Position numbers and translations under genes: made by a program | Part shown: piece by piece, positions 14,720 through 38,039 of the stretch | Layout: every line of letters starts with the position of its first letter | Position numbering within the stretch: position 1 is the stretch's first letter | NCBI GenBank assembly: GCA_902776765.1 | Contig: CACYRP010000010.1 | Location: 1-64,000 of the forward strand | DNA: 64,000 nucleotides | Source of the DNA: Fibrobacter succinogenes | GTDB lineage: Bacteria > Fibrobacterota > Fibrobacteria > Fibrobacterales > Fibrobacteraceae | Direction: 5' to 3' | Notes under the pieces: model-generated | Told to the model about the DNA's origin: nothing | Seen by the model: only the letters and a program-made list of their open reading frames with translations | Databases searched by the model: none

Positions 14720-17449
14720 ATGTTCACCAATAATCTCGAATGCATCCATTCTGCCGTTTTTGCAAAGGCGAAAGAAACACCAAACGCAACAGCACTCGTT
14801 TCGCGAAATGCAAATGGCAGCTACAACCAAACAACTTACGCAGAACTTTCTGAAAACGCTTTGAAAATTGCAACAGCGCTTAAAAAGACGGGTATAAAAG
14901 CGAAAGATTTTGTCGCCATCGTTCTCCCCAAAGGCATGGAACAAGTGTTCTGCACGCTAGGCATTCAGGCCGTTGGAGCGGCCTATATTCCCGTTGGCAT
15001 CCACCAGCCCATCGAAAGAATGCACAAGATTTTTGATGCCGCAAAGATTTCGGGAATCATCACAGACACAGCTCATGCAGAACAAATTCGCAAAGAAAAT
15101 CCAGCTTGGAAAGTGATTGAAATTGACAACGCACTGCAAAACGAGCCTTTGCCTATTGACGAAATCATCGAAGACCCAACAAGCCTAGCCTACGTCATTT
15201 TCACATCAGGCACAACAGGCGTTCCCAAGGGCGTCATGATTTCACATCGTGGTGCAAGCAATACCATTCGCGACATCAACGAACGCTACAACATATCGGC
15301 CAATGACGCCTGCATGGCCATTTCAGAATTGGACTTTGATCTTTCCGTCTATGACATTTTCGGCATGCTATCCACCGGCGGCAAGGTCATTGTCCTCTCT
15401 GAAGAAACCAAAAAAGAAGCAAACGTCTGGAAACAAATCGCAGCAGAGCAAAATGTGACATTGTGGAATTCTGTCCCAGCCCTTTTTGAAATGTTCACAA
15501 TTGTTCTCGGCAAGAGCGCAGAAGGAATTAACCTAAAGACAATTTTACTTTCGGGCGATTGGATTCCACTTTCACTTTTCGAAACGACCAAAAAACTTTG
15601 GCCGAATTGCCGATTTATTTCTTTGGGAGGTGCAACCGAAGCTTCCATTTGGTCGGTCTATTACGAAGTCAACGCCCTTTCTGCCGACTGGAAATCCATT
15701 CCTTACGGCAAGGGATTAAAGAACCAAAAGATTCGCATTGTTAGCGAAAACGGTATCGAGTGCGCGCAAGGCGAAGCTGGTGAACTATGGATTGGAGGCA
15801 TCAGTGTTGCCGAAGGTTACTTGAATCAGCCAGAACTTACTAAAGATCGATTCCCTATAATATACGGAGAACGTTGGTACAAAACGGGAGACAAAGCCCG
15901 CATAATGCCGAACGGCAACTCCGAATTTTTAGGACGCCTCGATACGCAAATCAAGCTTGGCGGCTACCGCATAGAACTTGGCGAAATCGAAAATGTCATC
16001 AAGAAAAACACACGAATCATAAATGCCGCTGCTGTTGTTGTCGAAAACGGAGCAAAAAAAGAAATTGCAGCAGCGATCATCCCTGCACTCGCCAACGATA
16101 GAATTGCGAAATACGATTACAAATTCATCGACAATTACGCCGATGAAACATTACACGACCGCACCAACGCTGTGGCCGCGCTTATCCACACCATCCGTTC
16201 CAACATCAAAGCTATTCCTGAAAAAACAAAGAACGCTTTTGCGTTATGGGGCCATTGGCTTTTCCAAAACGGCTTTGAAAGCATACGGCCTACGGTTGAA
16301 TCTGATTTTTCAAAAAAACTGAACAGTAACGAAAACATCGAACTGCTACAAAATGTACTTCTCGGAAAACGCCCAGAAGCGGACCTGTTAACAAATGAAT
16401 TTTTCGCTCCCGAAAAATTGCTCTGCGAAAGTGCCCCTTTCAAGACGTTTATCAATAAAGTTGTATCTCACGCCGCAACTACCGAAGCAAAGAAAATCGC
16501 ATTCCTCAACGCACGTTCTGGAATTGGCGCCAGTGAATTTTTGAAGGAATACGAAAAGAACGGTATGGAAGTTACGCTATTCGATGAATCTACCGGCATG
16601 CTTGATGCCGCAAGAGATTCGTTAACCGCATGGAAAAATCGCGTTAAATTCAAGCAGCTCGATTTAAGCGCAGGCGTAAAGGACTTAGACACATTCGACC
16701 TTGTGATTGACGCAGGTTTCTTGCACACATACAACAACCCCGCCAACGCACTTGCTTTCGCCTACATGATTCTCAAGAAAGGCGGAACATTCATGGCACT
16801 TGATTTCGAAAACTTTGACCCCGTAGCCATCGTAAGCTCAGCGGTCCTCGAAAATGGCTTTGAAAAATACACACGTTTGCGCCGTTTCACATCACTTTTA
16901 TCCGACGAAGAATGGGAATCCATTTTTAGAGAATTGCCATTCGATACAATTTCGCTCGAAAATAATTCGCACTTTGTACAGACGATCATTGCACAAAAGG
17001 CAATGGATGCCAAGGAAATTCTCGGCGAAGCATTCAATGCGTACTTGAAAGAAAATCTCGTACCCTACATGATTCCAGCCAGGACTGAAGTTTTCGTCAA
17101 GTTTCCGCTCACAAACAACGCTAAAGTTGACCGCAAAGCCATTACGGAACTGCTGAAGAAAGCCGCAGACAACGAAAACATTGATGAAAATTACCAAGGG
17201 CGTGAAGCTGACCTTGCCGTAATTTGGAAGCAACTTTTGTCTTTAGAAAAAATCGACCGTCATGCAAGTTTCTTTGAAATCGGTGGAGACAGTTTGCTCG
17301 CCACGCGATTCCTCGAAAAAGTCCACACGCAATATGGTGTTGAAATTTCGCTCAGGGAAATTTTTGAAAACGCAGAGCTCAACAATCTTGCCAAGATTTT
17401 TGATGAACGCATTAACGCCTTAGGCGATATCGAAGAGGGGGAAATATGA
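14720..17449 (+). CDS. NRPS: A (Cys)-pseudo-methyltransferase-PCP, no condensation domain
   Basis: The 909-residue protein begins directly with an adenylation domain (about 10-450): A3 FTSGTTGVPKG (161-171), FDLSVYD (206-212), WNSVP (249-253) and GGATEASIW (303-311). The pocket residues read D-L-Y-N-L-S-L-I-W, the cysteine code known from pyochelin/yersiniabactin synthetases. Between A8 (YRIELGEIE) and A10 (NNAKVDRKA, about 799-807) is a methyltransferase-like insertion of about 330 residues whose SAM motif I is eroded (LNARSGIGAS instead of an E-x-G-x-G-x-G core). It may act as a PchE-type epimerase or be inert. A PCP follows with Ser858 in GGDSL. There is no C or Cy domain, so a partner must supply it; the stand-alone Cy protein at 26495 is the obvious candidate. 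Confidence 0.9.
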   Translation: MFTNNLECIHSAVFAKAKETPNATALVSRNANGSYNQTTYAELSENALKIATALKKTGIKAKDFVAIVLPKGMEQVFCTLGIQAVGAAYIPVGIHQPIERMHKIFDAAKISGIITDTAHAEQIRKENPAWKVIEIDNALQNEPLPIDEIIEDPTSLAYVIFTSGTTGVPKGVMISHRGASNTIRDINERYNISANDACMAISELDFDLSVYDIFGMLSTGGKVIVLSEETKKEANVWKQIAAEQNVTLWNSVPALFEMFTIVLGKSAEGINLKTILLSGDWIPLSLFETTKKLWPNCRFISLGGATEASIWSVYYEVNALSADWKSIPYGKGLKNQKIRIVSENGIECAQGEAGELWIGGISVAEGYLNQPELTKDRFPIIYGERWYKTGDKARIMPNGNSEFLGRLDTQIKLGGYRIELGEIENVIKKNTRIINAAAVVVENGAKKEIAAAIIPALANDRIAKYDYKFIDNYADETLHDRTNAVAALIHTIRSNIKAIPEKTKNAFALWGHWLFQNGFESIRPTVESDFSKKLNSNENIELLQNVLLGKRPEADLLTNEFFAPEKLLCESAPFKTFINKVVSHAATTEAKKIAFLNARSGIGASEFLKEYEKNGMEVTLFDESTGMLDAARDSLTAWKNRVKFKQLDLSAGVKDLDTFDLVIDAGFLHTYNNPANALAFAYMILKKGGTFMALDFENFDPVAIVSSAVLENGFEKYTRLRRFTSLLSDEEWESIFRELPFDTISLENNSHFVQTIIAQKAMDAKEILGEAFNAYLKENLVPYMIPARTEVFVKFPLTNNAKVDRKAITELLKKAADNENIDENYQGREADLAVIWKQLLSLEKIDRHASFFEIGGDSLLATRFLEKVHTQYGVEISLREIFENAELNNLAKIFDERINALGDIEEGEI

Positions 17450-18525
17450 TAGGAATTTTGGGCGCTTACGGAGCTACAGGCATCTGGGCAACTCGTTTTA
17501 TCAAAAATAATTCAAATAATAGTCTTCGCATCGGTGGACGCAACATCGACAAAGTTCCACAAGAATTACGCGAAGAATGGAAAGATGCCGAATGGGTTAA
17601 AGTAAACGTTTCTGACAAAGAAAGCATCGAAAAGTTTATAAACGGATGCGAGACGATTCTTGACTGCGCCAAGCTTTCGGTAGAACAAACTAGACTCATG
17701 GACGAGATAGCCGAAGCAAAAGGAGTCTCTGTTTTGCATCTTGGAATTGCAGGATTCGAGCGCCAAGAATCGAAAGTTCCCATATTCTACGGAACGGGAG
17801 CCATTCCAGGACTTTCTGGATTGATTCCACAATATCTGTCTAAAAAATTCGATCATGTAACATCGCTTGAATTTTATTATGGCGGGTTAGGAGCATTTTC
17901 GTACACTGCAGCAAATGATTTCATCGACAGTCTCCATAATGACGACAATCGCACCATGGTCTATTGGAAAAACGGTGAAATTCTCCCATTCGAGCCATCA
18001 GCAAACGATTATTCCGAAGATTTAAAATCGGTTATTCCCATCAATAAAATGTTTCCATTTTTCGATGGCGAAGCCGAGGCCATAACGCGCAAACTGAATA
18101 TAGATGAAGCACGATTCCACATGTGCCTCAGCGGCAAGCGCATGATTGAAATAATGAACTCCGCAAGGCATCAATACAAACAAAATCCTGACGAGACAAT
18201 TAAAAAACTTTGCACCGCAAGCAAACTCGATACGTTCGGAATCAAAGAGAACACATTCTATTTGTGCATTATGGAAGGCGTCAAAGATAACGCCCCCGCA
18301 AAATTCAAGATGACCGTTTCTGGGCTCGGTCCCTCGCCATTGACAGGCGTTAGCGCTGGGGCAGCAACACTTTGCCTTACTAAAGATGCAAAAAATTGCA
18401 AAACAATATTGCTTGGCGAAAGCGATTTAGCAACACCCATCATCGATTCACTCATAGCAAACGAACCTGATTTTTCTTGCGAAATCAAGGATATGAACGC
18501 AATAGAAATCGAGGGAGAAATTTAA
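17446..18525 (+). CDS. Saccharopine dehydrogenase-like NAD(P)-dependent reductase
   Basis: The 359-residue protein starts with a Rossmann fingerprint (IGILGAYGATGIWATRFI) and has the general plan of saccharopine dehydrogenase-like NADP-binding proteins, with a C-terminal segment SGLGPSPLTGVSAGAATLCL. It overlaps the NRPS stop by four bases (ATGA) and is followed two bases later by an Irp3/YbtU-like reductase. Proteins of this kind occur in some pyochelin-type clusters (enantio-pyochelin PchK is the case I recall) as an alternative thiazoline reductase. A role in reducing a thiazoline or another imine in the assembly line is inferred. Confidence 0.72.
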   Translation: MIGILGAYGATGIWATRFIKNNSNNSLRIGGRNIDKVPQELREEWKDAEWVKVNVSDKESIEKFINGCETILDCAKLSVEQTRLMDEIAEAKGVSVLHLGIAGFERQESKVPIFYGTGAIPGLSGLIPQYLSKKFDHVTSLEFYYGGLGAFSYTAANDFIDSLHNDDNRTMVYWKNGEILPFEPSANDYSEDLKSVIPINKMFPFFDGEAEAITRKLNIDEARFHMCLSGKRMIEIMNSARHQYKQNPDETIKKLCTASKLDTFGIKENTFYLCIMEGVKDNAPAKFKMTVSGLGPSPLTGVSAGAATLCLTKDAKNCKTILLGESDLATPIIDSLIANEPDFSCEIKDMNAIEIEGEI

Positions 18526-18527
18526 AA

Positions 18528-19601
18528 ATGAAAAAAAGAGTTATTGTCTGCGGAAGTACTTTTGGGCAATTTTATATCAATGCATTGCAGCAACTTTTAA
18601 GTGATGAATTTGAGCTCGTCGGACTTTATGGAAAAGGCAGCGAACGATCCAAGAAATGTGCCGAAACATACGGCATTCCACTTTTCACTGAATTCGAACA
18701 AATTCCACAAGTAGATTTTGCATGCGTTGTGATTAGCTCTGGAACTGTCGGCGGTATCGGCACAGAACTCGCTTGCAAGTTCATGGAAAATAAAATTCAT
18801 GTACTCCAGGAACAGCCCATCCATCCGCGAGATCTTACAGAAACCTACCGCGTTGCAAAAAAGAATGGCGTTTACTTCAAGACTTGCGACCTTTACCCCA
18901 AACTCCCCGAAGTGGCACGTTTTATACGCGTTGCAAAGGAATTGAATAAACACGAGAAACCGCTTTACATCAAGGCCGCCTTCGGCCCGCAAGTTTCATT
19001 TCCGGCGATAGACATTCTTTCGCAAATTCTCCCTTCCATTTACAATCTGAGCGTAGAACACATTACGGAATGTGTTGGCCCGTTCGATATTCTTACAGGA
19101 AAACTAGGCGACACGCCCATCACCATCGAATACAACAATCAGGTAAATACGGATGACCGCGACAACCACGCGCATCTCTTGCATAATTTCGCCATCGTTT
19201 ACGAAACAGGCCGTTTGATTCTCGAAGATACATTCGGCCCCGTACTTTGGAAGCCGCGCATGTACGTTCCCAAGTATTTGTACAATCCCGAAAAACGCAA
19301 CGAAATCCCGCCTTACTTGAAGGAATTGACCATGGAAACTTTGGGCAATTACAAGGCAAAAGATTTTGTGCACGTTTTATTCGACGATTGGAAACAGGGA
19401 ATTGCAGACAACATCGTTGAATTTTCAAAAATGATTGATCAAAAAGTAAAACTCGCTCCTTATGCGCAACGTGAACTTCTGTGTTCACAAAAATGGTCCG
19501 AAATCACCAACATTTTCGGCTTTGCAAAGCTAATTCACCCCGAAAGCAACAGCGAATACATCCCGTCGGCAGAAATCCATAAATATAGCGAAGAGGTTTA
19601 A
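18528..19601 (+). CDS. Thiazolinyl imide reductase, Irp3/YbtU/PchG-like
   Basis: From the ATG at 18528 the protein has about 357 residues. It carries an N-terminal Rossmann segment (RVIVCGSTFGQFYINAL) and the Gfo/Idh-like pattern seen in YbtU and PchG, including VLQEQPIHPRDL, where the conserved EQP follows the nucleotide site, and a long C-terminal domain. The start is chosen for the GAGGGAG site and its position two bases after the previous stop. Such enzymes reduce a carrier-bound thiazoline to a thiazolidine with NADPH. This implies that at least one ring of the product is reduced. Confidence 0.88.
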   Translation: MKKRVIVCGSTFGQFYINALQQLLSDEFELVGLYGKGSERSKKCAETYGIPLFTEFEQIPQVDFACVVISSGTVGGIGTELACKFMENKIHVLQEQPIHPRDLTETYRVAKKNGVYFKTCDLYPKLPEVARFIRVAKELNKHEKPLYIKAAFGPQVSFPAIDILSQILPSIYNLSVEHITECVGPFDILTGKLGDTPITIEYNNQVNTDDRDNHAHLLHNFAIVYETGRLILEDTFGPVLWKPRMYVPKYLYNPEKRNEIPPYLKELTMETLGNYKAKDFVHVLFDDWKQGIADNIVEFSKMIDQKVKLAPYAQRELLCSQKWSEITNIFGFAKLIHPESNSEYIPSAEIHKYSEEV

Positions 19602-19607
19602 AATACA

Positions 19608-22600
19608 ATGGACAAGAACATGAAAGAATTGGTCAATCGTTTTGAAAATAAAGGAATCCATCTTTGGGTTGATGGTGGAAAAATAAAGTATAAAGCATCA
19701 AAGGAACTGATGACACCCGAAGTTCTTGCGGAACTCAAAGCAAATAAAAATGCATTGATTGATTATCTGAGTTCAACACAAGACAAAAGTTCCGTCGCTA
19801 TCGTCATCGACCGCACCAACCGTTTTGAGCCATTCCCACTGACTGACGTACAATCCGCTTATTTGCTCGGTCGCAGCAAGACATTCGAATACGGTGGAGT
19901 TGCTTGCCATGTGTATTTAGAAATCCGTTACGCGGAACTCGAAACATCTAAAGTCCGCAACATTTGGAATGCCATCACACGCAAATACGACATGCTTCAC
20001 GCATTGATTAACGAGGCTGGGTATCAGCAAGTAATGAAGGAAGTTCCAGAGCTTGACATTCCGGAATGGGATTTGGTAAAGAACCCCGAAAAAGCAAACG
20101 ATTTTGAAAAGTTCCGCAAAGAAATGGGCAACCGCGCCTACACTGTCGGGAAATGGCCCATGTTCGGTCTTGCCGTAAGCCGCAATAACGAAAGCGCCAT
20201 TCTTCATTTTTCGATTGAATTTTTGCTCGCCGACTGGACAAGCATTTGGAAACTCGTTGCAGAATTTGAAGCCGCTTATTTTGACGGGATCGCCGTCACG
20301 GGTGAAGAAGAACTTTCTTTCCGAGATTACTTGATTGCAGAAAAAAAACTCAAGGCAACACCACAATACGAAAAAGAAAAGAAGTATTGGATGGAGCGCA
20401 TTGCAAATCTCCCCGATGCACCTGAATTGCCGAAGCTCCCTGCATCAGAAGCGAAGGATTCTTTTGGTCGAAAATTTTTGAGAATTCCAGTCGAATCATG
20501 GAATCGCATAAAGGAGCGCGCAAAGCAATACGGATTGACGCCAACCGTTCCGATCCTTTCGTGCTATGCCGATGTGCTTGCTAAATGGAGTCGCAATAAA
20601 CGATTCTGCATCAACATGACCGTTTTGAACAGACTCCCGCTCCATGAAAAAGTCATGGACATCGTAGGCGATTTTACATCGCTCAGTTTACTCGAAACCG
20701 ATTGTTCTTCAAAAGAAAATTTCCTTGCTCGCAGCCGGAAAATTAACGGTCAACTTTTTGCAGACTTGGACAATCGCCTTTTCAGTGGCGTCGAAGTCAT
20801 GCGTGAAATCTCTAGACAAAGTAAAAAAACAGGGCTTTCGATGCCAATCGTTTACACCAGTGCGATTGGCCTTGCCGATTCGGGGGCACCATTACGCGGA
20901 GACTTTGTCGGAGGAATTTCCCAGACGCCGCAAACATTTATCGACTGTCAAGTGATGGATGGAACGTTCGGATTGCAAGTCAACTGGGACTATCGCGAAG
21001 GCGTATTCCCAGAAGGCGTTTTGGATTCCATGTTCGAAGCTTTCGAAAAACGCTTGATTACGCTCGCTGAAGAAAATACCAATTGGGAAGATGTTGCAGA
21101 AATCGCCCTCCCCAACCGCGACGCCGCAGAACGCAAGGCTGCGAATGACACGCGAAAAGATTGGAACGTGCGAATGTTGCAAGACGACTTTATCGAAAGT
21201 GTCAAGCGCACGCCGAAAAAAATTGCCATTGACGATGGCAAAGTCAAATTCACATTCGAAGAACTTGACGCACGCGCTAAAGTCCTTGCCGACCAGCTCA
21301 TCACCTGCGGCGTAAAGGCTCAGGATTGCGTCCCGGTCTTGATGGAAAAATCATCATGGCAAGTTGTAGCCGTATTCGGCATCCTGTATGCAGGCGCAAT
21401 TTACGTTCCAATCGCAGCGAACAAAGCAAAAGGCCGTGCCGAAAAAATCGTCAAGAAGACAGGTGCGAAAGTCGCCATTGGAATTTCTTCTGACGAAGCA
21501 ATTCTCGAAGGCGAACTCACAACAATTAACGTCGACTCGCTTAATGCCAATATCTTTGCCGTAGACTGCTCAAGATTTCCCAAGCGCACTCCCGACGATA
21601 TCGCCTACATCATCTACACCAGCGGAAGTACGGGTGAACCCAAGGGCGTCGTGATTACGCACAACGGAGCCATGAACACGATTGATGACATGAACAGTCG
21701 ATTCGGAATCACGGCAAATGATGCGGTTCTTGGACTTTCGCAGTTAAACTTCGACCTTTCTGTCTATGATATTTTCGGAGTACTCGCTTGTGGCGGAACC
21801 GTTATTTACCCCACCGCCGAAGATTACATGAATCCCGAAATTTGGGAATCTCTCATTCACAAGAATCACATTACGGTGTGGAATACCGTTCCCGCATTAA
21901 TGAAGATGCTTTTAAACTTTATCGAAAGCAAGCCCAATGCAGAGCCGCTCCCGCTTCGTGAAGTATTCCTCTCGGGCGATTGGATTCCTGTTGACATGCC
22001 CGAAAGAATCCGCAAAGCAGCTCCCGGCGTTGATGTGATTTGCCTTGGCGGTGCAACAGAAGCATCCATTTGGTCGAACTACCACCGTTACGATCCGAAT
22101 GATGGTCTCAAAATTTTGCCGTACGGTCGCCCGCTTGCAAATCAGACAATGCACATTCTCGATGAGAATTTACAACCCTGCCCGACAATGGTCGCAGGGC
22201 AAATTGCGCTCGGTGGCGACGGCGTTGCACTCGGCTATTATCTTGATGCAGAACGCACAGCCGCTCAATTCGTAACACTACCACAAACAGGCGAACATGT
22301 TTACTTAACAGGCGACATGGGCCGTTATTTACCGGGCGGTGAAATCGAATTTCTTGGCCGCGAAGACACACAAGTTAAAATTCGTGGGCATCGCATTGAA
22401 CTTGGTGAAATTGAAAACATCTTGAAAGACTTCCCCGCCATCAAGGAAGCCGCTGCCGTCGTAAGCGAAGACAAGCGCGAAATCTATTCCGCCATTGTCG
22501 CTGAAAATGCTACACCTGACGCCATTAACGCAAAAAAGCAAAAGTTTGTCGAACGCGAAAATGCTGTCGAAAAATTCATGCAAGAAAGCATTGGCGAAAT

Positions 22601-25600
22601 AAACGTCAATGAAGTTAACGCTGGCTATAAAGCCGAAGAAAAAGCAAGTACTTACAGTATTTTACTCGCTCTTCAAAAGATGGGTGTTTTCCAAAAAGAT
22701 AAAACCTACACCATCGAAAAAATCAAGGCTCCAGTCATTTCCAAATACCATTATCTTGTCACACAATGGCTCGGTTATCTACTTGCAGAAAAGTTTATCG
22801 AACAGCAAGGTGATTCCTACGTTTGTCGTATTGATGCCACCGAGCAAGAAAAAGAGAAACTTTGGAATGACGCCTATGAAGTTTGGAACGGCGAATACAT
22901 TGCAAAAGATTTCCTTGAATATGTCAAGCTCAATGGCGACAATCTTGCAGAAATTGCGCAAGGTAAAGTCGATCCAGGTAAATTCTTGTATGCAGAAGAA
23001 GGCGACAAATATCGTTATACCGATTCGCTTTATGTCAAAAATAAAATCATGCAGATTGCATTCAAGACTTTAGCGGAATACCTAAAGCAAATCTTGGCCG
23101 AAAATCCTGAACGCACAATCCGTATTCTCGAAGTTGGCGCAGGAACAGGCTCTGCAACAAGGTATTTATTACCCGCATTAAAGGGTCATAAATTTGAATA
23201 CTACTTCACGGATTATCTAAAGCACTTTTTCCCGACCGCACAGGAAATGTTCAAGGATTATCCGGAACTTGTATTTAAGCAGTTGGACTTGAATGAAGAT
23301 TTCCACAAGCAAGGTTTAAAATCCAATTCATTCGATATTGTCTTTGGCGGTTACGTCATGGATAACGCTATTGATTTCGAAAAGACATTGGAACAGATTG
23401 AAGATGTCATCGTTCCTGGCGGACATTTCATGTTCCTAGAATCTTATGAACTTTCGGCATGGATTACAATTACACAGGCGCTTTTGATGGATGTTCCGTC
23501 CGACGATTTGGAACGTCAAAGAGAAATTTTTGAACAGCTAAAAACGCCTCGTCACAAGTGGGCAGAAAAACTCCAGCATGGTGAAAAAGACGCTAGCATA
23601 AGTTCGTTCCCAGCAAACGACAATGCGCTCGATCTTTTGCACGTGCTATTCTTTGTCAAGCAAGTCAAATGCAACAAGCAAGTTATCGACAGCGAAAAGC
23701 TCAAGGAACACCTTGATAAATACCTTTTGCATTACATGCACCCTGGTTACATTCAGGAATTCAACGCTTTGCCGCTTTCTGCAAATGGCAAAATCGACCG
23801 CAAGAAGATTCTCAAGTTCTTCGAAGAATCAAAGGCCAAAACGGGTGCGTTAAACCTTACGCAAGTCGAAGAAGCGCTTGTCAGCAGCCTACCGATTGAA
23901 AAAGCAACCGCTTTCTTGGGCAGCAATAAGGACAACCTCATCATTGCAGTGGAACCGCGCCAAAAGCAGGGCAAGCAAATCGAAGCCGCAGAAAGTTCTT
24001 TTGCACAAATCACCGCTCAGGTCAGCGAGGAAGTCGATAAACAGTTGGCCGATTGCGATTGGGAAAAAATCAAAGTCAGTTCGAAAACACAAGAAGATGC
24101 CGCAGCGGATTCTATTCTTCTCGGACTTTTGAAAACAAACATTCTCGTATTCGGGAAAGACTTTACCAAGCAAGAATTGGAACAGGCTTTGCCTGAAAAA
24201 TATCAATTCCATGCCCAAGAATGGATTAACGCTCTCGTAAACAATGGAAAGATCGCCGCCTGCGAAAATGGTTACAAGATTTTGGAAGAAACCACTCCTG
24301 AAAAGAACGAAAAGAAGTGGGAAGAGGCCATTCAAAAGCTTGACAGCCATATCGCAAAGCCGGAATACCTCCTTTACCTCAAGGATAACGGAACTCACTT
24401 TGGCGAAATATTAAAAGGGACTGTCAATCCAGAAGAATTTGTTTACAAGAACTATACCGGTAGCAAAGACAAGAATGCACTAGAAAACTGGACTGATATC
24501 ATGCAAGCCCAGAATACAAACAAGAGCATCAACAAGTATCTTGTCGCATTCTTGGAAAAGACCATGATGAAGGATTCCAAGAAAACTTGGAGAATTCTTG
24601 AACTTGGCGCTGGCACAGGTGTAATCACCAAACAGGTTTTCGATTATCTCAAGAAATCGGGAATTCCGTTCATTTACAATTTCACGGATAAGTTCACCCA
24701 ATTCTTCGCAACAGCCTCGGAATACACTCATAAAGATCCTGCCATGATCTTTACACAATTGGATTTCAATGAGGATTTCGAAAATCAGGGCATTGCAGAA
24801 AACAGTGTCGATATTGTCCTATGCGGTGGCGTAATGGCCAATTCCGTCGATTTGAACTACACGCTAGAACAAATCAAAAAAGTCTTGGTCCCTGGCGGAT
24901 ACCTCTATATCGGAGAAGCGGTCGATAACATGGCATCCGTATCTGTCTCGCAGGCGTTAATGATGGACAAGCCTACCGACAAGATTAGAGAACAAAATAT
25001 GTTCTTGTCGAAGGACGAATGGATTCATTTCATTTGCAGTAAAGATGGGCTCAACAACATTGCCACATTCCCGCAAGACGACGCCAAGGCTCAAATGTTG
25101 GGCGGTCACTTGTATGTCAAGCAAATGAAGTACGACAAGGATGAAGTTGCTGAATCTTCTGTGAAGTTGATTCTGAATGACCTCTGCCCTGAAAAGAACA
25201 CATCCATCCATATCCTTGACAAATTGCCCTTGACCGCAGGCGGAAACGTTGACCAGCGTGCGCTCAAGCACTACGCAGATGCATTCGAAGCCTCTCAAGG
25301 TAAAGACCAGTCCATCGAAAAACGCCTTATCGAAATCGCCATCAAAGCTTTAAACATAGATTCTATCGGCAAAGACGACAATTTCTACGATTTTGGAGCC
25401 GATTCCTTGCTCATGGCGCAAATGGCTACAACGATTCGCAACGAACTCGCGCCAAACAAGACATTCGATGCAATATTAAAGCAGATGCTCGATTTTCCAA
25501 CAGTCAACGACGTTGCGAGATTCTTGAAAGATGAAATCGAAGAAAGCGCAACCCATTCTGGAGAACTGATTCAACTTCAGCGACACGGCAAAGCCAAAAA

Positions 25601-26495
25601 CGATTGCGCAAGAATTCTTCTTCCGACCGTTCTTTGGAACGATGAAATATTCCATGAAATTATTCCGCTCATGGAAAAACAAGACGAAGGTGAAATTTAC
25701 ACATTCAAGCTTTTGAATACGCAACAATTCTTTGAACTTAAAGAAGACGAAGTCGCAAGCGTCTTAGCCAAGGAATTTGCAGATAAAATCATTGCTGCCC
25801 ACGTGACAAAAGTTCAAATTATCGGATACAGTTTCAACGGAAAACTTTCGCTTGAACTTGCCGAACGTCTAGAAAATGCAGGAATCGAAGTCATAGACCT
25901 TGCTATTGTCGAAGGCGCACGTTTACCATTCGAGCTCAAGCAAACAAACATGAAAGACTTCTTCTTCGCGACATTGATTGGCGTTGCTCCAGAAAAAGTC
26001 GGATTCAAATTTGAAGACATCACTTATTTAATGGTCCAATACCTCGAAGAAACAAAGAAGAAAATCATTGATGAAACCGATTTTGAAAAAATAATCAGCA
26101 GTTCTTCTGATGCGGCAGCCATCAGAGCGTTCAACGCATTATCGGCCAACGAACGTTTTGCAAAAATCAAGGAATATTCCGGAGCATTTGCCAAAACAAC
26201 AACAGACGAAGCGTTTACTCGAATCAAGAAAACATTCGATCAAAATTTCAACGTCATGATTCATTATAATCCAACTCCGTACTTTGGCGATTTACGCTAT
26301 TTAAAGGCGAATAACGGCAACAGCATCTTCAAAAATGCAGACAAAATGTTATTCCAAAAATGGGATGATCTTTGCATTGGCGAAATCAAGTACGAAGAAC
26401 TCAAAGGCGATCACTTTACTGCGTTCACTTCAAAAGATTACGCCGTAGATTTAGCAGAAAAACTTTCATTGAATAAGCTAGAGGAACTTGCCTAA
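19608..26495 (+). CDS. NRPS: TubC docking-Cy-A(Cys) with two inserted methyltransferases-PCP-TE
   Basis: The 2295-residue termination protein has, in order: a TubC-type docking domain (about 1-58); a Cy domain (about 72-500) whose usual D-x4-D-x2-S motif reads E204-x4-D209-x2-S212; an A domain (about 515-960; TSGSTGEPKG 671-680, pocket D-L-Y-N-F-S-L-I-W, cysteine-type); methyltransferase 1 (motif I EVGAGTGS, about 1175-1182); an A10 segment NGKIDRKK (1393-1400); methyltransferase 2 (ELGAGTGV, 1665-1672); a second degenerate A10-like segment GGNVDQRAL (1878-1886); PCP (Ser1933 in GADSLL); and TE (GYSFNG, Ser2075; GDH at 2267-2269). Both methyltransferases keep motif I. The TE lacks the usual final glycine of GxSxG and has Glu where the catalytic Asp is expected (VEGA). 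Release by this TE makes it the last module. Confidence 0.92.
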   Translation: MDKNMKELVNRFENKGIHLWVDGGKIKYKASKELMTPEVLAELKANKNALIDYLSSTQDKSSVAIVIDRTNRFEPFPLTDVQSAYLLGRSKTFEYGGVACHVYLEIRYAELETSKVRNIWNAITRKYDMLHALINEAGYQQVMKEVPELDIPEWDLVKNPEKANDFEKFRKEMGNRAYTVGKWPMFGLAVSRNNESAILHFSIEFLLADWTSIWKLVAEFEAAYFDGIAVTGEEELSFRDYLIAEKKLKATPQYEKEKKYWMERIANLPDAPELPKLPASEAKDSFGRKFLRIPVESWNRIKERAKQYGLTPTVPILSCYADVLAKWSRNKRFCINMTVLNRLPLHEKVMDIVGDFTSLSLLETDCSSKENFLARSRKINGQLFADLDNRLFSGVEVMREISRQSKKTGLSMPIVYTSAIGLADSGAPLRGDFVGGISQTPQTFIDCQVMDGTFGLQVNWDYREGVFPEGVLDSMFEAFEKRLITLAEENTNWEDVAEIALPNRDAAERKAANDTRKDWNVRMLQDDFIESVKRTPKKIAIDDGKVKFTFEELDARAKVLADQLITCGVKAQDCVPVLMEKSSWQVVAVFGILYAGAIYVPIAANKAKGRAEKIVKKTGAKVAIGISSDEAILEGELTTINVDSLNANIFAVDCSRFPKRTPDDIAYIIYTSGSTGEPKGVVITHNGAMNTIDDMNSRFGITANDAVLGLSQLNFDLSVYDIFGVLACGGTVIYPTAEDYMNPEIWESLIHKNHITVWNTVPALMKMLLNFIESKPNAEPLPLREVFLSGDWIPVDMPERIRKAAPGVDVICLGGATEASIWSNYHRYDPNDGLKILPYGRPLANQTMHILDENLQPCPTMVAGQIALGGDGVALGYYLDAERTAAQFVTLPQTGEHVYLTGDMGRYLPGGEIEFLGREDTQVKIRGHRIELGEIENILKDFPAIKEAAAVVSEDKREIYSAIVAENATPDAINAKKQKFVERENAVEKFMQESIGEINVNEVNAGYKAEEKASTYSILLALQKMGVFQKDKTYTIEKIKAPVISKYHYLVTQWLGYLLAEKFIEQQGDSYVCRIDATEQEKEKLWNDAYEVWNGEYIAKDFLEYVKLNGDNLAEIAQGKVDPGKFLYAEEGDKYRYTDSLYVKNKIMQIAFKTLAEYLKQILAENPERTIRILEVGAGTGSATRYLLPALKGHKFEYYFTDYLKHFFPTAQEMFKDYPELVFKQLDLNEDFHKQGLKSNSFDIVFGGYVMDNAIDFEKTLEQIEDVIVPGGHFMFLESYELSAWITITQALLMDVPSDDLERQREIFEQLKTPRHKWAEKLQHGEKDASISSFPANDNALDLLHVLFFVKQVKCNKQVIDSEKLKEHLDKYLLHYMHPGYIQEFNALPLSANGKIDRKKILKFFEESKAKTGALNLTQVEEALVSSLPIEKATAFLGSNKDNLIIAVEPRQKQGKQIEAAESSFAQITAQVSEEVDKQLADCDWEKIKVSSKTQEDAAADSILLGLLKTNILVFGKDFTKQELEQALPEKYQFHAQEWINALVNNGKIAACENGYKILEETTPEKNEKKWEEAIQKLDSHIAKPEYLLYLKDNGTHFGEILKGTVNPEEFVYKNYTGSKDKNALENWTDIMQAQNTNKSINKYLVAFLEKTMMKDSKKTWRILELGAGTGVITKQVFDYLKKSGIPFIYNFTDKFTQFFATASEYTHKDPAMIFTQLDFNEDFENQGIAENSVDIVLCGGVMANSVDLNYTLEQIKKVLVPGGYLYIGEAVDNMASVSVSQALMMDKPTDKIREQNMFLSKDEWIHFICSKDGLNNIATFPQDDAKAQMLGGHLYVKQMKYDKDEVAESSVKLILNDLCPEKNTSIHILDKLPLTAGGNVDQRALKHYADAFEASQGKDQSIEKRLIEIAIKALNIDSIGKDDNFYDFGADSLLMAQMATTIRNELAPNKTFDAILKQMLDFPTVNDVARFLKDEIEESATHSGELIQLQRHGKAKNDCARILLPTVLWNDEIFHEIIPLMEKQDEGEIYTFKLLNTQQFFELKEDEVASVLAKEFADKIIAAHVTKVQIIGYSFNGKLSLELAERLENAGIEVIDLAIVEGARLPFELKQTNMKDFFFATLIGVAPEKVGFKFEDITYLMVQYLEETKKKIIDETDFEKIISSSSDAAAIRAFNALSANERFAKIKEYSGAFAKTTTDEAFTRIKKTFDQNFNVMIHYNPTPYFGDLRYLKANNGNSIFKNADKMLFQKWDDLCIGEIKYEELKGDHFTAFTSKDYAVDLAEKLSLNKLEELA

Positions 26496-27949
26496 TGGAT
26501 TATCAAAAAATTAGCGAGCTTATCGACAGCTTCGCTCATCGAGGCGTTACGCTCTGGCTCGAAGAAGGAAAGCTCAAGTTCCGCGCAACAAGCGGGGCAC
26601 TTTCCGCAATCGACAAAGAATGCCTCAAAGCGAATAAAGCCGACATTATCGCATTCCTCGAAAAGAAGGACGAAGACGAAAAAGACTCCTTTCCGCTTTC
26701 GCCCATTCAAAAATCGTATCTCGTCGGACGCGATCCCATTTACGATCTTGGCGGGATTAACACCCATTACTATATGGAATTGGAGCTTGATGAATCTCTA
26801 GACGTAGAACGTTTGCAGAACGCATGGAACGAAGTCATCGTCCACGATGATGCACTTCGCCTTGTCATTTCATCAGCGGGAACGCAACGTGTTCTTGAAA
26901 CTGCGCCATCCTATTCCATTGAAATTGTGGAGCTAGAATCTCCTGAACAGCGACTTGAAAAACGCAAGGAATGGAGCCATCACATTTATCCGTTGAATCA
27001 ATGGCCGTTCTTTACGATGCGTGTTTCCCGCGTTCCGAACACAAAAGATGTTCTGCATTTCGATTTCGACTGCATGATTATGGACGCCTGGAGCGCAAAG
27101 ATTGCTTTGTCGCAAATGTTCAAGTTCTATCGCCACGAAAATGTGCAATGGGTGGACTACAGTTTCAAGGATTACTGCACAGACCTTGTCGCCTACGAAA
27201 AACAGCAAGATTATTCACAGGCAGAAGCATTCTGGAAATCGAAGGTAAATGAATTAGTTTGCGAGCCTGACTTGCCCTACGCAAAACCACTTTCTGAAAT
27301 CCACAACCATCGTTTTTCAAGAATTTCGGGCGAATTGTCCATCGAAGAATTTGCGCTGTTCCAGCAGAGATGCCGAGAATACCGCACGACGCCCGCTGCG
27401 GTCATCAGCACCGCGTATCTTAAAGCGCTCCTTGGCTTTAGCAAAAACGATTCGCTGACTATCAATTCGACATTATTCAACCGCCTTCCGCTCCATAAAA
27501 ACATCAACTCGGTTGTCGGAGACTTTACAAACATCGCATTCATCACGCTCTCCAAAAAGTGCAAAAACTTTTTGGAATGTGTTCAGTCCGTACAAAAGGA
27601 TATGTGGCAACTCGTGCGATTCCACACATTTGATGGCACAAAAATTCTCAAGTTCAAGGAAGGACTTTCGCCCATGCGCGCGCAGATGCCCATCGTCATC
27701 ACCTGCGTTCTAGAAAACGGACAAAAATCCAACAGCGAAATGCCCAAAGGACTGCACCAGATTTACGCCCTCAGCAAAACACCGCAAGTCGTGTTGGATT
27801 ACCAAGTAACCAATTTCGACGGGAAACTGTCCGTCAACTGGGACTATGCAGAGCCAGCATTTACTCCAAATACGTTAAAGCAAATGTTCGCCGCGAATGT
27901 CGGTTTGCTCAAGCGATTACTGACCGAAAAATGGGAAGAGGTTCTGTAA
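26495..27949 (+). CDS. Stand-alone TubC docking plus cyclization (Cy) domain protein
   Basis: This 484-residue protein consists only of a TubC-type docking domain (about 1-55; HRGVTLWLEEGKLKFRA) and a condensation/cyclization domain with the canonical D192-x4-D197-x2-S200 motif, plus the Cy-like segments FPLSPIQKSYLVGR and VVGDFTN. It has no A or carrier domain. Since the protein at 14720 has A and PCP but no Cy, the two can together make one complete cysteine module acting in trans. The start overlaps the previous stop (TAATG). Confidence 0.9.
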   Translation: MDYQKISELIDSFAHRGVTLWLEEGKLKFRATSGALSAIDKECLKANKADIIAFLEKKDEDEKDSFPLSPIQKSYLVGRDPIYDLGGINTHYYMELELDESLDVERLQNAWNEVIVHDDALRLVISSAGTQRVLETAPSYSIEIVELESPEQRLEKRKEWSHHIYPLNQWPFFTMRVSRVPNTKDVLHFDFDCMIMDAWSAKIALSQMFKFYRHENVQWVDYSFKDYCTDLVAYEKQQDYSQAEAFWKSKVNELVCEPDLPYAKPLSEIHNHRFSRISGELSIEEFALFQQRCREYRTTPAAVISTAYLKALLGFSKNDSLTINSTLFNRLPLHKNINSVVGDFTNIAFITLSKKCKNFLECVQSVQKDMWQLVRFHTFDGTKILKFKEGLSPMRAQMPIVITCVLENGQKSNSEMPKGLHQIYALSKTPQVVLDYQVTNFDGKLSVNWDYAEPAFTPNTLKQMFAANVGLLKRLLTEKWEEVL

Positions 27950-36803: not shown

Positions 36804-38039
36804 CTAGTCATCAAGCGGAACGATATAATAAGCAGTTCCTGTCGTTACATCCATTTCCTTCGTGACCTTTCCAGATGCAATGTCATAGCGGTACACGGCA
36901 CCACCCTTCTTATCGGCATGGCCCAAAAGAACGCTCTTGCCATCGGCATCCAAATGAATGGACGGAGCAAACCACGGAATTGTCGGAGAAAGGCCTTCAA
37001 TCTTTTCAATAGTCTTTTTCTTCAAATCAATGACAACAAATTCCCATTCGTAATTGTTATAGTTGCTCGGATCTTCGAAGTTACCGAAGAAGCCAAGGAA
37101 CTTGCCCTTACCCAAATAAGCACCACCACTCATCAAATAATTGTTATTGCTTTTTTTGCCAGCGTAAGCGGCATCATGCAAATGGAAAACCCAATCCTTA
37201 TCAAATTCAGTTTTGCCCTTCTTAAGACGAACAAAGCCTTCTTTATAACCATCCATCCAACCCATTGCGGCATTGGAATAGTAGTAGATATCGCCATCTT
37301 CATCAACGAAAGACATGGTATTGTTCATATCGTCAATAACGCCAACGGCAGCTGTAAGGTTTTCCGTAATAACCTTTTCAACCTTATCCGTCTTGACATC
37401 AATAACAGCAACAGACCCCTGAGCACCGGTAATCATGCTATTAAGATCCACCATCTGTGAAAGGGCAACGAACATTTTGCCATCGCGAATCACCGCAGAA
37501 TTCGGGACCGTAGTCACAGCGCCATTCTTTTCGTCAATATATTTGGAAAGGTCAATTGTAGCCTTTTCCTTAAGGGTAATCGGATCAAGTGCTGTAATGG
37601 CATCACCCAAAGTCTGTTCAACATACATTTTGTCCTTATCGACAAATTTCATCATGAGAGCATGTGTGCCCTTGAATTTAGCCGTAGCAGCCGGCTTATC
37701 GGACATATTGTTATCCTTGTCCAGTTCATAGCGTACAAGCGTGCTATTCATATCTTCGACATAGAGCGCATAGAGCGAGCCATTAAAATATTGGAAACTG
37801 CCCTTATTGGGGATTTCAACAAAGTCATCCACCACTTTTTTCTGATCCGCAGAAATTGACGCTGTTCCAATGAACTGGGAATTTTCCACCATGAAAGAAA
37901 ATCCGTACTTCTTTCCGCTTTCATTGGAATCGTCGGATGCATTGGAGTTCGAATCGCTACAAGCGGCAAGTCCAAAAACGAGACTGGAAACAGCGAGACC
38001 TTTAAAAAGGCTCGGAATGATTTTGTATGTCTTTTTCAT
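36804..38039 (-). CDS. Surface-type lipoprotein, beta-propeller-like (lipoprotein 1)
   Basis: The 411-residue protein has a lipoprotein signal ending in the lipobox LAAC (GLAVSSLVFGLAAC), then a Ser/Asn/Asp-rich linker. The body is made of repeated blade-like units (for example YFNGSLYALYVED, VIRDGKMFVALSQM and VIDVKTDKVEKVI) suggesting a beta-propeller. It is clearly paralogous to the lipoprotein at 45317-46516: both have TALDPITLKEKATIDLSKY-like and IDVK.DKV-like segments. It follows a TonB-dependent receptor gene by 77 bases. The pairing recalls XusB, the siderophore-binding lipoprotein partner of the receptor XusA in Bacteroides. Capture of the ferric metallophore at the cell surface is inferred. 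Confidence 0.8.
   Translation of the reverse strand: MKKTYKIIPSLFKGLAVSSLVFGLAACSDSNSNASDDSNESGKKYGFSFMVENSQFIGTASISADQKKVVDDFVEIPNKGSFQYFNGSLYALYVEDMNSTLVRYELDKDNNMSDKPAATAKFKGTHALMMKFVDKDKMYVEQTLGDAITALDPITLKEKATIDLSKYIDEKNGAVTTVPNSAVIRDGKMFVALSQMVDLNSMITGAQGSVAVIDVKTDKVEKVITENLTAAVGVIDDMNNTMSFVDEDGDIYYYSNAAMGWMDGYKEGFVRLKKGKTEFDKDWVFHLHDAAYAGKKSNNNYLMSGGAYLGKGKFLGFFGNFEDPSNYNNYEWEFVVIDLKKKTIEKIEGLSPTIPWFAPSIHLDADGKSVLLGHADKKGGAVYRYDIASGKVTKEMDVTTGTAYYIVPLDD

Follow-up and report, generated by a model that had tools for sequence, protein, structure and literature searches.

Adenylation domains with inserted methyltransferases

Natural adenylation (A) domains bearing two methyltransferases (MTs) have been described for ColG of the columbamide pathway (A-Ms-Mb-A) and for LynB3/LynB5 of the lyngbyapeptin pathway (PMC11355689, PMC10127204), and the MT pair of ColG, reported to perform N,O-dimethylation, was termed a rare MT domain tandem in a 2025 paper (PMC12184294). 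A related kind of insertion is the epimerase of PchE, in which H1204, the His of the L-H motif, is essential (PMC8807600). It is rare for one A-domain region to hold two inserted MTs. The gene described here, located at 19608..26495 on the forward strand of a DNA stretch of 64,000 nucleotides (the window) from the gut bacterium Fibrobacter succinogenes, appears to have gained its two MTs by duplication of a mobile C-terminal A subdomain (Asub) with a stuffed MT, the adenylation role of one copy having then decayed. The literature search retrieved no publication on such a Fibrobacter enzyme, and published tandems other than those named here may have escaped it. In the plasmid collection, the best-scoring matches listed, among them every record with 80% or more coverage of the tandem query, extend over only about 1.4-1.7 kb at each place and correspond to single MTs.

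Architecture of the terminal NRPS gene

The gene encodes a protein of 2295 aa with the layout TubC_N-Cy-A[MT1]-psiAsub[MT2]-PCP-TE, as assigned from Pfam layout and motifs, and all features in the window given below lie on the forward strand unless stated otherwise. The TubC_N docking domain (aa 6-55, 19623..19772; PF18563, E 7e-14) is followed by a condensation domain (aa 108-488, 19929..21071; PF00668), called heterocyclisation-type (Cy) from the cluster context, and by the A domain core (aa 530-925, 21195..22382; PF00501) with predicted cysteine-type specificity, its code motifs being common to pyochelin-type synthetases. The A8 side of the functional Asub (aa 926-965, 22383..22502) carries the RGHRIELGEIEN motif and strongly matches an Asub profile built from non-Fibrobacter A domains only (E 7e-13). 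MT1 (aa about 976-1350, 22533..23657), identified by Pfam, PDB matches and alignment, contains the SAM motif EVGAGTGS at 1175-1182, and behind it the A9/A10 side of the functional Asub (aa 1352-1405, 23661..23822) holds the invariant catalytic Lys in NGKIDRKK at 1393-1400.

The second half of the insertion begins with the psiAsub N half, a decayed A8-side copy (aa 1412-1452, 23841..23963), and continues with MT2 (aa about 1461-1835, 23988..25112), which bears the SAM motif ELGAGTGV at 1665-1672 and was assigned from Pfam, block alignment, AF2 and Foldseek. It closes with the psiAsub C half, a decayed A9/A10 copy (aa 1838-1891, 25119..25280) in which GGNVDQRAL at 1878-1886 has the Lys replaced. 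The PCP (25323..25526; PF00550) with its phosphopantetheine site DFGADSL and a thioesterase domain (25590..26477; motifs GYSFNG and GDH, PF00975 weak) complete the protein. The motifs quoted in the initial annotation were all located where it had placed them, and the anatomy of A core, Asub[MT1], psiAsub[MT2], PCP and TE is regarded as secure.

Tandem duplication of Asub with its methyltransferase

Alignment of the blocks 926-1405 and 1412-1891 demonstrated their homology, with 31% identity over 426 aa (E 6e-64), and their shared flanking motif reads QLDLNEDFHKQG at 1225-1236 and QLDFNEDFENQG at 1717-1728. The tandem duplication of MT plus C-terminal A subdomain that had been proposed from the sequence is borne out by this alignment, by the sister clades of the two MTs and by the Asub profile in both blocks, but the repeat is longer than proposed, as block 2 starts with the decayed A8-side half of Asub, TGALNLTQVEEALVSSLPIEKATAFLGSNKDNLIIAVEP from 1412, the register of which matches RGHRIELGEIENILKDFPAIKEAAAVVSEDKREIYSAIVA from 926.

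This A8-side repeat alone gave no significant match in BLAST, and the Asub profile matched it weakly but in register (hhalign E 3.6e-4 in a single comparison, probability 37%); hmmsearch scored it with at most 1.8 bits in three tandem rows, the window's own protein being without a listed match. The A10 region of copy 2 was matched strongly (hhalign E 2e-11; hmmsearch 5e-8), and the A10 side of copy 1 was matched too. The AF2 model of block 2 (pLDDT 70, six-row alignment) contains a helix-strand-strand, the MT and a helix-strand-helix, a predicted secondary structure that fits an Asub with an insert. Foldseek on this model returned the MTs of CurJ, AprA and DszA as top matches, and PchE was aligned over 507 columns, approximately the whole of block 2, with a modest TM-score of 0.38. 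The AF2 model of the entire tandem (1060 aa, four-row alignment) was poor, with a pLDDT of 41, and was set aside.

MT1 sits between RGHRIELGEIE (926) and NGKIDRKK, as is typical of an interrupted (stuffed) A domain, whereas MT2 is located past the functional A10, within the decayed, Lys-less second Asub, which separates the arrangement from a di-interrupted domain of the ColG kind. Since block 2 opens with a decayed A8-side Asub half, MT2 does not count as another insertion into the working A domain; the initial observation is confirmed, with the correction that MT2 resides in a dead second Asub of its own. As the second block holds a complete decayed Asub copy plus an MT, the alignments and profiles identify the duplicated unit as [Asub::MT], with only MT1 interrupting the working A domain. 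An Asub already bearing a PchF-type stuffed MT would thus have been duplicated in tandem. The sequence shows that copy 1 (Asub::MT1) retains the A10 lysine and completes the A domain, and that copy 2 (psiAsub::MT2) has lost A8, A9 and the A10 lysine while keeping the Asub secondary-structure elements and an intact, conserved SAM-binding MT. The only present role of psiAsub may be that of a scaffold that positions MT2 between A domain and PCP.

Conservation of the tandem across genomes

The gene is present in 8 of 80 Fibrobacter genomes, six with the tandem and two (G001 and G004) uninterrupted, and the tandem also occurs in one genome of another genus (G158). Locus L022 is the same contig as G099 and was therefore counted once; the tandem set comprises seven genomes. 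Besides the window, the tandem is an open frame in five further Fibrobacter genomes and in the one of the other genus. The A10 lysine of copy 1 is K throughout the tandem set and in both uninterrupted orthologues, and the corresponding position of copy 2, which is also without A8 and A9, is N, T or S in 7/7 tandem genomes. The SAM motifs (E/D) of both MT1 and MT2 are kept in all seven.

Pairwise omega between tandem pairs (Nei-Gojobori) was 0.05-0.10 for MT1, 0.06-0.13 for MT2, 0.04-0.14 for the psiAsub N half and 0.04-0.10 for psiA10, saturated synonymous sites leaving some of these values rough, and the values of both MTs are of the same order as those of the A core, Cy and TE. MT1, MT2 and psiAsub are under purifying selection, which is strong for the MTs, and with so low an omega MT2 is not a freely drifting relic. 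In G095 (L037/L040), a frame break, or else an assembly error, divides the terminal NRPS gene within its Cy region.

Kinship of the two methyltransferases

In a tree of 28 MT domains, with long branches and modest sampling, the MT1 and MT2 sequences each formed one clade and together a clade with support of 100/99, which joined Burkholderia PchF homologues and an Anaerococcus reductase-MT fusion with support of 96/91, so that the resemblance to PchF noted initially extends to both MTs. MT1 and MT2 scored 178 bits against each other and at most 109 against any other MT, and the MT2 branch is longer than that of MT1 (1.38 vs 0.75). The S/T-Q-x-L/F-x-M motif and the loss of the L-H motif His are common to MT1, MT2, PchF and the Anaerococcus fusion. 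At E 0.01, neither McyA nor TioS was among the PDB matches of the MT part; the McyA chain 8jbr was matched in the A10 region only, and the closest solved folds are PKS C-methyltransferases of the CurJ/DszA type. The Anaerococcus fusion (L055:8909-11080), a thiazolinyl imine reductase joined to a PchF-type methyltransferase, is encoded on plasmid pAPRE01 of Anaerococcus prevotii and adjoins a Cy/NRPS siderophore-like cluster.

The surrounding gene cluster

The genes on one flank of 19608-26495 code for ABC transporters, a type II thioesterase, two reductases and a protein of the layout A-[insert]-PCP, and those on the other for a TubC_N-Cy protein, a phosphopantetheinyl transferase, a protein resembling aryl-AMP ligases and a carrier-first two-module NRPS, with TonB receptors and FeoB after them. 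The motifs of Cys-type pyochelin synthetases occur in all four A domains, and the gene content marks the locus as a predicted cluster for a poly-thiazoline siderophore resembling pyochelin and yersiniabactin. The terminal gene would accordingly encode the final module of a polycysteine siderophore synthetase, pyochelin/yersiniabactin-like and salicyl/aryl-capped, an assignment that, taken jointly with the two-methyltransferase reading below, is given slightly better than even chances.

The A-[insert]-PCP protein (14720..17449) carries an epimerase-like insert in which, by sequence comparison, the equivalent of PchE H1204 is kept and the SAM motif (GxGxG) is lost, and this insert is the candidate epimerase of the cluster. 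The protein has no condensation domain of its own, and the free-standing TubC_N-Cy protein (26495-27949) may be its split-module partner. The reductase genes comprise a putative thiazolinyl imine reductase (Irp3/PchG-like; 18477..19601; PF21390, PF01408) and a second putative reductase (17446..18525), which tblastn relates, at E 1e-12 to 2e-18, to genes annotated as saccharopine-dehydrogenase-like in pyochelin-type clusters; two different putative thiazoline reductases thus adjoin each other at 17446-19601. Further along, the gene at 36804-38039 on the reverse strand has no Pfam match and a translation opening with a lipoprotein-like signal; its relatives in G001 and G004 (51-53%) adjoin a TonB receptor, and it possibly encodes a siderophore-uptake surface protein.

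A probable exchangeable tailoring half

The uninterrupted orthologues of G001 and G004, modules of 1427 aa with no MT, are 82-86% identical in Cy and A core and divergent after A8, with 63-66% identity in Asub, 54% in the PCP and about 37% in the TE; g359, at 50%, is divergent as well. Neighbouring genes are closer, at 79% (A-E-PCP), 85-87% (TubC-Cy) and 85-94% (ABC/TEII genes) identity, and the aryl-AMP ligase reaches 91% in G001 and 58% in G004. The Irp3-like reductase is 67% identical in these MT-less relatives, as against 76-94% for most other cluster genes, and 94-96% identical across the MT-bearing genomes (94% in G158).

Comparison of G158 (L077) with G064 (L036) revealed 96-98% identity from MT1 through MT2 and PCP to TE, and about 85% in Cy/A core, a pattern suggesting that the tailoring half of this gene has recently passed between two genera; the A-E-PCP of G158 stands at 55%. 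The MT1-MT2-PCP-TE half and the thiazoline reductase therefore look like an exchangeable cassette, and their travelling together is the strongest indirect sign that the MTs may act on a reduced (thiazolidine) intermediate. MT2 itself occurs in three types that are 64-72% identical, with flanks generally much closer (window; L022, L034-L037, L077), which suggests MT2-limited recombination.

Predicted chemistry and alternative explanations

The position of the L-H motif His, a residue present in CurJ, is Asp1252 in MT1 and Ala1744 in MT2 in 7/7 tandem genomes, Asn in Burkholderia PchF and the Anaerococcus fusion, and His in eleven other MTs compared. The H1204 equivalent of PchE-type epimerases is therefore absent from MT1 and MT2 and present in the 14720-17449 insert, and the SAM motif, lost from PchE-type epimerases, is retained in MT2. 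N-methylation does not need the deprotonation of a carbon acid. With SAM motifs intact and the His of C-methyltransferases absent, both MTs agree with the PchF type of N-methyltransferase, so that two (N-)methylations are favoured over methylation plus epimerisation, and of the outcomes suggested in the initial annotation neither C- plus N-methylation nor a methylation combined with an epimerisation is favoured.

The Cy domain would make the last thiazoline on the PCP, the adjacent reductase would convert it to a thiazolidine, MT1 and MT2 would each pass a SAM methyl to the PCP-bound chain, and the TE would then release the product. One methyl would most likely go to the last thiazolidine nitrogen, and the second may go to another reduced ring nitrogen, for which the second reductase gene is present. 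One assembly step thus probably carries two methyltransferases. The likeliest reading, with odds a little in its favour, is that both are active in methyl transfer and that one of them, MT1 or MT2, methylates the thiazolidine nitrogen; the fuller proposal of a dead-Asub scaffold with two working MTs, N-methylating a poly-thiazoline siderophore twice in succession and forming, in the MT1-MT2-PCP-TE half with the reductase, an intergeneric cassette, is put forward tentatively and somewhat below even chances. Against two methylations, a single pyochelin-like thiazolidine has only one secondary N, the His criterion is based on few characterised enzymes while some pyochelin-type MTs retain the His, and an engineered M-domain pair at a8/a9 gave no detectable methylation in one study (PMC11355689).

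The alternative nearest to this is that MT1 alone N-methylates the last thiazolidine as in PchF, MT2 being a non-transferring relic or a structural/docking element. It agrees with the single N-methylation that pyochelin requires (PchF N-methylation: PMC11355689), with the longer MT2 branch and with the greater variability of MT2 between species, but is hard to reconcile with SAM motifs kept in seven genomes, with the low omega of MT2 and with MT2 types swapped as units, an exchange that suggests function, and it is considered unlikely, at perhaps one chance in a handful. Epimerisation or C-methylation of the alpha-carbon by MT2, with MT1 methylating, has precedent in the inserted MT-like epimerase of PchE (PMC8807600) and in PKS C-MTs as the closest solved structures. 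The His shared by PchE and CurJ is, however, replaced in every genome compared, by Asp in MT1 and by Ala in MT2, the cluster already holds an epimerase-like insert at 14720-17449, and the loss of the His together with the retained SAM motif, unlike in PchE-type epimerases, led to both roles for MT2 being rejected as improbable.

Two independent captures of different MTs, a side-chain plus a backbone enzyme, would correspond to the double-MT A domains known from ColG and LynB3 (PMC11355689, PMC10127204). MT1 and MT2 are mutually closest by bit score and form sister clades, and each occupies an Asub copy of its own, so this origin was rejected as very improbable. As for an assembly artefact or a decaying pseudogene, the assemblies are draft or metagenomic and G095 has its frame break in the Cy region, but the identical architecture in six other assemblies from two genera and omega far below 1 reduce this explanation to a negligible probability.

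Comparison with known systems

Double MT insertion is already known, and the present locus would add the duplication of Asub::MT as a new route to it, the described pairs combining unrelated MTs. If this is true, duplication of the whole unit with a dead Asub as scaffold is a natural way to fit two working MTs into one NRPS module. As the engineered a8/a9 pair was reported inactive, a natural tandem with its own Asub scaffold for each MT offers a testable design rule, and the MT-less orthologues of G001 and G004 provide a natural control for the contribution of the MTs to the product.

The closest system is PchF, the pyochelin synthetase with the layout Cy-A[MT]-PCP-TE, which shares with the Fibrobacter gene the terminal Cys module, an MT of the N-MT type after A8, a thiazoline reductase in the cluster and release by a TE. 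The PchF homologues examined have a single Asub::MT, whereas Fibrobacter has two copies of the unit, the second with a dead Asub. The inserted epimerase of PchE/HMWP2 (A[E]-PCP) likewise places an MT-like fold in Asub between A8 and A9, but has kept the catalytic His and lost the SAM motif, the reverse of MT1 and MT2, and its counterpart in the cluster is the 14720-17449 gene. The PKS C-methyltransferases of the CurJ/DszA type, closest in solved fold, differ by their PKS location, the presence of the His and the lack of an Asub. ColG and LynB3/LynB5 resemble the present gene in bearing two MTs in a natural A-domain region, at a8/a9. The MTs of ColG and LynB3 belong to different families, a side-chain O-MT and a TioS-like backbone N-MT (PMC10127204), in contrast to the sister PchF-type paralogues of Fibrobacter with an Asub each, the distinction from ColG being drawn from its published description.
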